Positions 1-15,452 of a stretch of DNA of 35,664 nt are shown here, piece by piece; within the stretch, counting starts at the first letter, position 1, and the number at the start of each line of letters is the position of its first letter. The DNA comes from an uncultured delta proteobacterium (GTDB taxonomy: Bacteria; Desulfobacterota; WTBG01; CAIYCZ01; CAIRTM01). The notes under the pieces were generated by a model that saw nothing but the letters and a program-made list of their open reading frames with translations, searched no databases and was not told where the DNA came from. The position numbers were made by a program, and so were the translations under genes. The stretch covers positions 1 to 35,664 of the forward strand of contig CAIRTM010000114.1 in the NCBI GenBank assembly GCA_903881505.1. The letters run 5' to 3'.

Positions 1-1533
1 CTTGAGCAGGCTGACGATGTATTTTGGGTAGTTCTGCCACCAGTTGACCGAGCTGGCGACTTTTGTCATGGGGGTATTGGTCTTGAGATAGTCGGCAAGG
101 GCAGCCTGTGAAGCCCGCGGGGCGGCCATATATCCCGGCAGGTAGTGATAGAGCAGGGCAAAGTCGGTTGAACCCTGCACGTTGGGCTCGCCGCGCAGCG
201 CATTGACGCCGCCGCCGCATATGCCGATATTGCCCAGCAGCAGCTGAACGATGGCCATGGTGCGGATGTTCTGCACCGCGGTCGTGTGCTGCGTCTGGCC
301 GAGGGCATACATGATCGTGCCGGCACGGTTCCTGACGCCTGTTGAGGCAAACGTTTCATACACGCTCAGCAGGTCCTTGCGGGGCGTGCCGGTAATGTCG
401 GAAACCTTCTCCAGCGTGTAGCGGGAATAATGTTGTTTGAGCAGCTGGAACACGCAGCGGGGGTCCTGCAGCGTGGGGTCTGTTTTCGGCGTGCCGTCGT
501 CATTAAACTGGAAGGCCCATTTCGATTTGTCGTATTTGCGGGTTGCGGCATCGTAGCCCGAAAACAGGCCGTCATTGAAATCGAATGCATCCCCGACAAG
601 GTAGGGCGCATTGGTGTAGCTGACGACATACTCTTTAAAATACTTTTCGTTTTCGAGGATGTACTTGATCATGCCGCCCAGAAAGGCGATGTCGGTTCCC
701 GGCCGCAGGCGGGCGTAAATGTCGGCCTTGGCCGATGTGCGGGTAAACCGGGGGTCGACATTGATTATCTTGGCCCCGCGAGCCTGCGCCCGCAGAACCC
801 ATTTGAATGAAATCGGGTGATGCTCGGCAGCATTGCTGCCCTGTATCAGAAAAACATCACTGTTCTTAAGGTCGATCCAGTGATTCGTCATTGCGCCGCG
901 TCCGAACGACTCTGCCAGAGCCGGTACAGTCGGACCGTGTCAGACACGCGCCTGGTGATCGATATACACCATGCCCAGGGCGCGCGCCATGGATACCATC
1001 ATGAAGCATTCTTCGCTGTTTACATTGGAGCTTCCATGAAACGCAATTGTATCAACGCGATTGACCGTCTGCCCCTGGCTGTTCTGCCTGATGAAACCGG
1101 CGTCGCGGTCCTTTTTAATGTTGCGTGCGATTTTGTCAACCGCCCACGTCCAGTCCTTCTTCTCCCATGTGTCGCTGTTGGGGGCGCGGTACAGCACGTC
1201 CCGCAGCCGGTGCTGGTTGGCCGCCGTGGTTTCCATGATATTGGCGCCCTTGGGGCACAGGGTGCCTTCGCTGACCGGATGGTCGGGGTCGCCCTCGATG
1301 TTGATAACGGTGCCGCTCTTGTCGGTGCTGCAGATCAGGCCGCAGCCGACCGAACAGTAGCAGCAGATCGAAGTCGTCTGGGTGGCCTCCCGCAGTTTTT
1401 TCATCCTGTCCATGTCGCCGACGTGCGCCATGGCAGGCTTGGTATCAAGGCCGAGAGCGGAGAGGGTCAGCCCCCCGGCCAGTGTAGCGCCCGAGCCTTT
1501 CAGGAACTGCCTGCGCGTTACGGATGTTGCCAT
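1..1533 (-). CDS. fdnG: Formate dehydrogenase alpha subunit, selenocysteine-containing, Tat-exported (partial, 3' end outside window)
   Basis: Oxidises formate to CO2 at a Mo- or W-bis-pterin site; family knowledge places it in the periplasm with beta and gamma partners, which would lie beyond the left edge. Translation starts at the ATG at 1533, which has GGAAAGGAG upstream, and gives a Tat signal (TRRQFLKGSG, residues 6-15). A [4Fe-4S] site follows (C57/58, C60, C64, C95). At codon 198 (940-942) the frame meets TGA and continues without interruption as HGPTVPALAESFG to position 1, so the TGA is read as Sec; the context ARV-U-HGPTV is that of FdnG/FdoG. E. coli FdnG has its Sec at residue 196. 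The visible part is 511 codons of a protein usually about 1000 residues long. The fdnG symbol rests on family resemblance; an Fdh-type two-subunit enzyme is also possible. Molybdenum versus tungsten cannot be decided from the sequence. Confidence 0.95.
900..942 (-). promoter_or_regulatory. Sec UGA codon and bacterial SECIS hairpin of formate dehydrogenase
   Basis: The UGA occupies 940-942 on the minus strand. The roughly 40 nt after it can fold: GTCCG just after the UGA pairs with CGGAC about 25 nt later, and ACT with AGT, leaving a G/U-rich apical part containing GGCTCTGG. This matches the position and layout of the SelB-binding hairpins of E. coli fdhF/fdnG, where the first bases after UGA are also CACGG. 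Folding was done by eye. Confidence 0.65.
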
Positions 1534-1586
1534 AGTGTGCTCCTTTCCTGTAGCATGCGTTATCGTATCACATGTTTCGATCGACG

Positions 1587-1604
1587 CCCGTACTGCCGTA
1601 CGGG
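1587..1604 (-). repeat. Perfect 7-bp hairpin in the formate dehydrogenase 5' UTR
   Basis: CCCGTAC and GTACGGG are separated by four bases, 54 nt upstream of the formate dehydrogenase start and downstream of the terminator-like hairpin. It could be an mRNA hairpin or a protein-binding palindrome; nothing in the sequence decides this. Confidence 0.5.
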
Positions 1605-1630
1605 ATGCAAGGATATTCGTGATGCTTTGA

Positions 1631-1674
1631 AAAAACAAAAAAAGCCATTTCCTTTATGAAAGGACAATAGCTTT
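1631..1674 (-). terminator. Intrinsic terminator or attenuator upstream of formate dehydrogenase
   Basis: On the minus strand AAAGCTATT pairs with AATGGCTTT (one G-U pair), then after a bulged G TCCTTT pairs with AAAGGA around a CAT loop. A T-rich run of seven T, G and five T follows directly. This is a classic Rho-independent terminator. It sits about 100 nt before the formate dehydrogenase start and reads in the same direction, so it must be bypassed for the gene to be expressed from any promoter further upstream. Confidence 0.8.
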
Positions 1675-1912
1675 TACATAACCTCGATGAGCATGCACGG
1701 CTGAGGGAAAACCCGTCAGCGCATGTGTCCGCCGATTGCCTGTCAGTGCAACAGCCGGGCTTTCGGGGAAACACCCATGTTTGTCTGCAAGCCATTCCCT
1801 TTCCAACTCCAAAAGGCAAAGCCCTTTCGGGTTTTGCCCTCTCGATCAGTTCTCCTGACAGTGTGCTGCTGTAGGGAGACTGGCTCGGGAACTCAAGTGT
1901 GCAACCGTGTAC
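1675..1912 (-). ncRNA. Structured leader RNA of formate dehydrogenase, class not recognised
   Basis: Between a TTGACT box (1930-1935) and the terminator, the minus strand holds several nested hairpins. CAGTCTCC pairs with GGAGAACTG, with ACAG/CTGT inside. GGCAAA/TTTGCC encloses CCC-GAAA-GGG, a GNRA tetraloop. GGCTT/AAGCC encloses AAACA/TGTTT. CATGC/GCATG encloses GCTGA/TCAGC and GGG/CCC. No convincing protein is encoded. The layout of hairpins, then terminator, then gene is that of a riboswitch or attenuator. I compared it from memory with cobalamin, c-di-GMP-I, SAM and TPP cores and saw no match; I could not exclude a divergent molybdenum-cofactor motif. Confidence 0.5.
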
Positions 1913-2088
1913 CACAGGGGTTTGCCCGCAGTCAAGTATTTATTGAAACACTGGAATGCACTATCGTTGCGGGGAAGCTGCGGTCGGCGCGTCAACCGGA
2001 AAGCGTGCCTGCGGCAGCGCAGCCGGCGCGGAAAAGTAATTGCTGGATAAGGTCCGCGTTAATGAGATGCAAAAGGCGGCAGTTTTTA

Positions 2089-15303: not shown

Positions 15304-15452
15304 CGGTTTCGATACAATTTTTCAATTGCATTGTCGACCGTCTTTGTAACGCAGCGGGAGGCCTGTCTCTTTCGAGAACAGCCCTGTCGGTCATGGGCCC
15401 GCAGCAGAATGTCCTCAGGCGCGCATGACTCAGAAACGGTGTATCGCGAACA
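15304..15452 (-). ncRNA. Structured 5' leader of the hydrogenase operon, class not recognised
   Basis: Downstream of the promoter the minus strand shows three kinds of pairing. CTGTTCTC-GAAA-GAGACAG and TGCAATT-GAAA-AATTGTA are hairpins with GNRA tetraloops. GCGGG pairs with CCCGC and GACCG with CGGTC, in an interleaved order that would make a pseudoknot. The T-tract hairpin follows. With about 400 nt between promoter and hybO, this may be a regulated leader. No known riboswitch core was recognised by eye. Confidence 0.4.

Follow-up and report, generated by a model that had tools for sequence, protein, structure and literature searches.

A divergent Moco/Tuco-family riboswitch with a predicted OFF-type termination platform upstream of a formate dehydrogenase gene in an uncultured delta proteobacterium

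In the 35,664-nucleotide stretch of DNA analysed here (the window), the formate dehydrogenase gene fdhA is preceded on the minus strand by an RNA leader (1902-1637) that, judged from its sequence, is almost certainly a divergent member of the Moco/Tuco riboswitch family, RF01055, whose presumed ligand is the molybdenum/tungsten cofactor. The leader is best explained as a P3-less Moco-family riboswitch with an OFF-type termination platform, a reading to which we give a probability of about 0.75. The riboswitch class itself is known; what is worked out here is a four-segment antiterminator in front of fdh. Computation shows that it belongs to the family, that its pairings compete and that relatives share the arrangement. 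The parts of the leader and the gene are as follows:

1906-1935 (-): promoter-like sequence TTGACT, 18 nt, TACACG, predicted from sequence with 8/12 consensus matches
1780-1902 (-): Moco/Tuco riboswitch aptamer, P3-less
1887-1891 (-): P1 5' strand UUCCC (segment 1), pairing with GGGAA at 1799-1795
1844-1884 (-), about: P2 with a degenerate tetraloop receptor, from the Rfam alignment
1814-1839 (-): P4 with a GAAA tetraloop at 1828-1825, from sequence and the Rfam alignment
1803-1813 (-): P5, UU/GG
1789-1804 (-): P1 3' strand and junction GGAAAGGGAAUGGCUU (segment 2; antiterminator strand)
1676-1779 (-): linker with hairpins, without an Rfam match, folding inside the antiterminator loop
1659-1674 (-): terminator 5' arm (segment 3), pairing with segment 2 or 4
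1641-1655 (-): terminator 3' arm (segment 4), 13/15 identical to segment 2
1630-1640 (-): T-rich tail TTTTGTTTTTT, from sequence
1-1533 (-): fdhA, Tat-exported formate dehydrogenase alpha subunit (Pfam Molybdopterin; TIGR01553, 755 bits, under the full-length cut-off, as the window edge truncates the gene)

RF01055 is the sole Rfam match in the whole window: an Infernal scan places it at 1780-1902 (-) with 37.2 bits, barely over the curated cut-off of 36 bits, at E 1.8e-5, and the match spans the full length of the family (alignment 1-135). A permissive Rfam scan of 1480-2120 returned this same single match (E 3.2e-7 for the 641-nt stretch) and no second family up to E 10, the linker included, and a second known RNA there was rejected. 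By both E-values the feature exceeds chance; the predicted folding energy of 1910-1625 is -102.2 kcal/mol (z -2.86), matched by 3 of 200 shuffles. The copy has the multistem core of P1, P2 and P4 with conserved junction sequences, and with fdhA it lies, as is typical of the family, upstream of a gene for Mo/W cofactor synthesis, transport or enzymes. The first-pass annotation had matched the leader to no riboswitch class, a statement overturned by the single Infernal/Rfam match, which makes the class one already known; its suggestion of Mo/W cofactor sensing and of the Moco motif proved apt. It had also read the leader as non-coding, and indeed the 115-aa open frame that crosses it (1568-1915, minus strand) has no Pfam match, so that a protein-coding leader was rejected.

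The hairpins described earlier, one with a GAAA loop, fold as P2, P4 and the linker hairpins (1779-1676). P1 of the window copy is UUCCC/GGGAA, compared with UCUCC/GGAGA in most relatives, which amounts to two compensatory double changes. Of 59 aligned rows, 42 have the consensus CC/GG at P5; UU/GG occurs in the window copy only. The GAAA loop on P4 is intact and its receptor in P2 is degenerate; with both P5 and the receptor off consensus, ligand binding by this copy may be weak or lost. Across the 59 rows, 93.2% of cells in the modelled helices are paired, whereas slid controls do not exceed 54%; both sides vary in 15 of 19 helix pairs. These counts lean towards the model, since the alignment was fitted to it. 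P3 is absent (a gap in the RF01055 alignment), as in the Tuco subtype and in the other three RF01055 copies of the same genome. P3 was likewise missing from 58 of the 176 Moco RNAs of Regulski et al. (2008, PMC2408646); these accompany tungsten cofactor genes, a correlation, and direct ligand binding could not be demonstrated for Moco RNAs in that study. The missing P3 makes the tungsten form of the cofactor rather likelier than the molybdenum form, and by analogy we lean towards Tuco as the ligand; a P3-less copy in the same genome also precedes a molybdopterin aldehyde oxidoreductase gene, and the link between P3 loss and Tuco is a correlation only.

The promoter-like sequence stops 3 nt ahead of the aptamer, and TTGACA-type boxes stand at the same place in most other copies; the functional unit probably begins at about 1905. 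At its other end, the 15-bp terminator stem and T-rich tail of the first-pass annotation are present at 1674-1641 and immediately beyond, with one bulged G, a 3-nt loop and arms at 1674-1659 and 1655-1641. The stem thus stands; calling it "strong" needs care, since its arms are A/U-rich and a simple terminator scan does not list the site. The fdhA ATG follows at 1533, at about the 100 nt originally given.

The predicted switching platform shows in a repeated sequence. The terminator 3' arm, AAAGGAAAUGGCUUU (1655-1641), is identical at 13 of 15 positions to AAAGGGAAUGGCUUG of the P1 3' strand region; when the aptamer was dinucleotide-shuffled 20,000 times, 9 shuffles attained this level. Because the 3' arm copies the P1 3' strand, the 5' arm is able to pair with either: its duplex with the P1 3' region has an energy of -18.0 kcal/mol, that with the terminator 3' arm -15.5 kcal/mol. 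For a transcript that stops after the 5' arm, the lowest-energy (MFE) structure is the antiterminator (-88.8 vs -85.6 kcal/mol with P1 forced), which gives it a head start without ligand; once the 3' arm is added, the terminator fold is preferred (-99.4 vs -95.1). Some 3 kcal/mol of extra P1 stability would, in these models, tip the leader to the terminated fold. P1 and the antiterminator are mutually exclusive and the terminator is separate from P1, which is the arrangement of an OFF attenuator. The pairing energy of the 5' arm with its own aptamer stands out only moderately, 119 of 2,000 aptamer shuffles being as low; the OFF argument is carried by the 13/15 identity and its position on P1, not by that energy. 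The terminator and P1 thus compete for overlapping partners, in keeping with the riboswitch or attenuator order proposed initially and with what a transcriptional riboswitch requires. On this modelling, a termination-based expression platform in the leader is very probable, and the OFF direction is probable.

The ligand bound, the sense of the response and termination in vivo are inferred as follows. RNA polymerase would begin shortly before the aptamer. As long as no ligand is bound, the terminator 5' arm would pair with the P1 3' strand and its neighbouring junction, giving an antiterminator that forms ahead of synthesis of the terminator 3' arm, and fdh would be transcribed. With ample cofactor, the aptamer would close P1, leaving the terminator arms to pair and transcription to stop about 100 nt short of fdhA.

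The same design recurs among relatives. For 34 full-length copies, among them that of the window, terminators were read off folds, in some cases manually; these copies precede moaA-, modA-, moeA-, porin- and XDH-FAD-like genes (assigned by reading how the first open frame begins). Pairing of the aptamer 3' region with the terminator 5' arm and loop averages -12.3 kcal/mol within a locus and -10.6 between loci, a within-locus strength equalled by 0 of 20,000 permutations; the antiterminator pairing is thus locus-specific, and the window's terminator has the best fit of all 34 to its own aptamer. In these models the window leader has the same OFF design as the full-length copies. Two further arrangements of Moco RNAs may be recorded. 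Moco riboswitches stand directly before porin-like genes at six loci (L002, L087, L106, L135, L136, L141), with Porin_O_P confirmed at L002 and the other five judged by eye; these genes may encode a channel for molybdate/tungstate in the outer membrane. At L098/L133, L092, L104 and L149, a single gene is preceded by full-length Moco RNAs in tandem, one after the other.

Conservation upstream of fdh homologues, which the first-pass annotation had looked to, is partial. For these searches we used a model built from the family's full-length copies (R1) and one of a compact subclass (R3), both with E-values that are rough owing to a short calibration. A compact relative precedes fdh in four of the six FDH homologues of the window's taxonomic family (L115, L116, L118, L119), and the R1 search of 80 FDH loci from named genomes gave an upstream match in two (L067 and, weakly, L072); the closest FDH homologues, 57-60% identical, have no riboswitch match upstream. 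The window's fdh may have gained riboswitch control in this lineage. The nearest FDH homologues belong to Desulfobulbaceae and other deltaproteobacterial assemblies.

The compact Moco-like subclass has a short P2 without a receptor, no GNRA loop and P5 GC/GC, and its RF01055 scores, where seen, are 23-33 bits, below the cut-off. It is found at loci for AOR-type ferredoxin (L088, L101, L110, L127, L128, L129), for fdhA (L164 in addition to the six fdh loci just named) and for AOR (L160, L166, L169). Where folds of compact copies were checked, one strand serves both as P1 3' strand and as terminator 5' arm, which is an ON layout. A search for the subclass at a rough E of up to 0.01 had matches in 30 of 395 phylum genomes, some of them ordinary full-length copies. 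The window copy, full-length and with GAAA, lies outside the subclass, without an R3 match at a rough E of 0.5.

Three further RF01055 copies in the genome are stronger than the window copy, at 71, 66 and 62 bits: two are a divergent pair between aldehyde ferredoxin oxidoreductase and molybdopterin aldehyde oxidoreductase genes, and the third precedes a Porin_O_P protein gene. Aldehyde ferredoxin oxidoreductase is a tungsten-type enzyme. The copies that precede it at L001 (1501-1626, minus strand), L100 and L109 have no terminator, and there the ribosome binding site AAAGGAGAG looks like the P1 3' strand, so that P1 5' could serve as an anti-Shine-Dalgarno strand without ligand.

The gene fdhA, which runs past the window edge, has an in-frame UGA (Sec) at 940-942, codon 198; a search of the genome gave one other protein that carries the Pfam Molybdopterin domain (C91:47337-48629). 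The window also holds modABC, a methyltransferase gene, a second Moco-like RNA, hydrogenase-2-type hybO, hybA, hybB and hybC, hyp genes, a gene for a TOBE-domain (Mop-like) protein and XdhC-like genes, with fdhA divergently placed; together these make up a formate/hydrogen and Mo/W uptake cluster. The second Moco-like RNA, also divergent (15326-15447, minus strand), scores 46.6 bits with R1 (rough E 1.6e-8) and only 17.9 bits with Rfam, below the cut-off. It lies about 230-280 nt upstream of the gene for a Tat-exported [NiFe] hydrogenase small subunit, in front of the hydrogenase operon, with P4 and the CCUCCCG core intact and the P5 3' strand degenerate.

For an enzyme that itself uses the cofactor, an OFF switch is unexpected, and the fdh genes of relatives carry the compact RNA of ON layout. 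An ON-type Moco-family riboswitch, in which cofactor binding blocks termination, would be the expected form for a cofactor-needing enzyme, and the compact relatives before fdh and AOR genes, with P1 inside the terminator arm, are built that way. In the window copy, however, P1 does not overlap the terminator and its formation frees the terminator 5' arm, and the clade's other full-length copies share this non-ON layout; on pairing geometry we rejected ON logic for the window copy, and consider an ON-type switch unlikely.

A decayed riboswitch, no longer binding ligand and causing constant partial termination, would accord with the lowest Rfam score among the genome's four above-cut-off copies, the unique P5 change and the degenerate receptor, but the compensatory P1 changes and the well-matched antiterminator suggest continued selection, and we hold decay to be improbable. 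The separate small RNA that the first-pass annotation offered as an alternative, ending at the terminator and without cis control of fdh, would explain why the RNA is bracketed by promoter-like sequence and terminator. Against it, the leader matches a cis-regulatory riboswitch family, relatives show the same arrangement before Mo/W genes, and a simple promoter scan lists no minus-strand site from the terminator to fdhA; such an RNA is very improbable.

The P3-less OFF switch that we favour resembles the RF01055 RNAs of Regulski et al. (2008, PMC2408646) in P1, P2, P4 with its GAAA loop and the P3-less subtype, and has, as in some published examples, a terminator downstream. It differs by P5 UU/GG, the degenerate receptor, a linker of about 100 nt before the terminator, the four-segment antiterminator and fdh as the gene. 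In the E. coli moaA Moco riboswitch, cofactor is thought to reduce expression, like the OFF response proposed here; that riboswitch works on translation via P1 and the ribosome binding site, whereas the window copy would act via a terminator (PMC2408646). Moco riboswitches are predicted before aor genes (tungsten-type enzymes) in Pelobacter carbinolicus (PMC3543383), and a Moco RNA precedes a hydrogenase cluster in Eubacterium limosum (PMC5651825); hosts and genes are different from ours, and the parts of these reports that concern the RNAs describe no switching mechanism. The collected copies provide test pairs for Moco versus Tuco selectivity, on which the 2008 paper is without direct binding data.

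These layouts suggest that one aptamer family is wired both ways, OFF and ON, by gene type. It is conceivable, if doubtful, that the window copy, with its altered P5, responds to tungsten cofactor as an OFF switch and closes one formate dehydrogenase when that cofactor is ample, relatives using the compact ON version for fdh; if true, this would give an RNA basis for metal-dependent formate dehydrogenase choice. Molybdenum and tungsten supply has been reported to govern which formate dehydrogenases some anaerobes produce, and an RNA sensor beside fdh whose OFF platform can be read would be a concrete, testable route for such Mo/W control.
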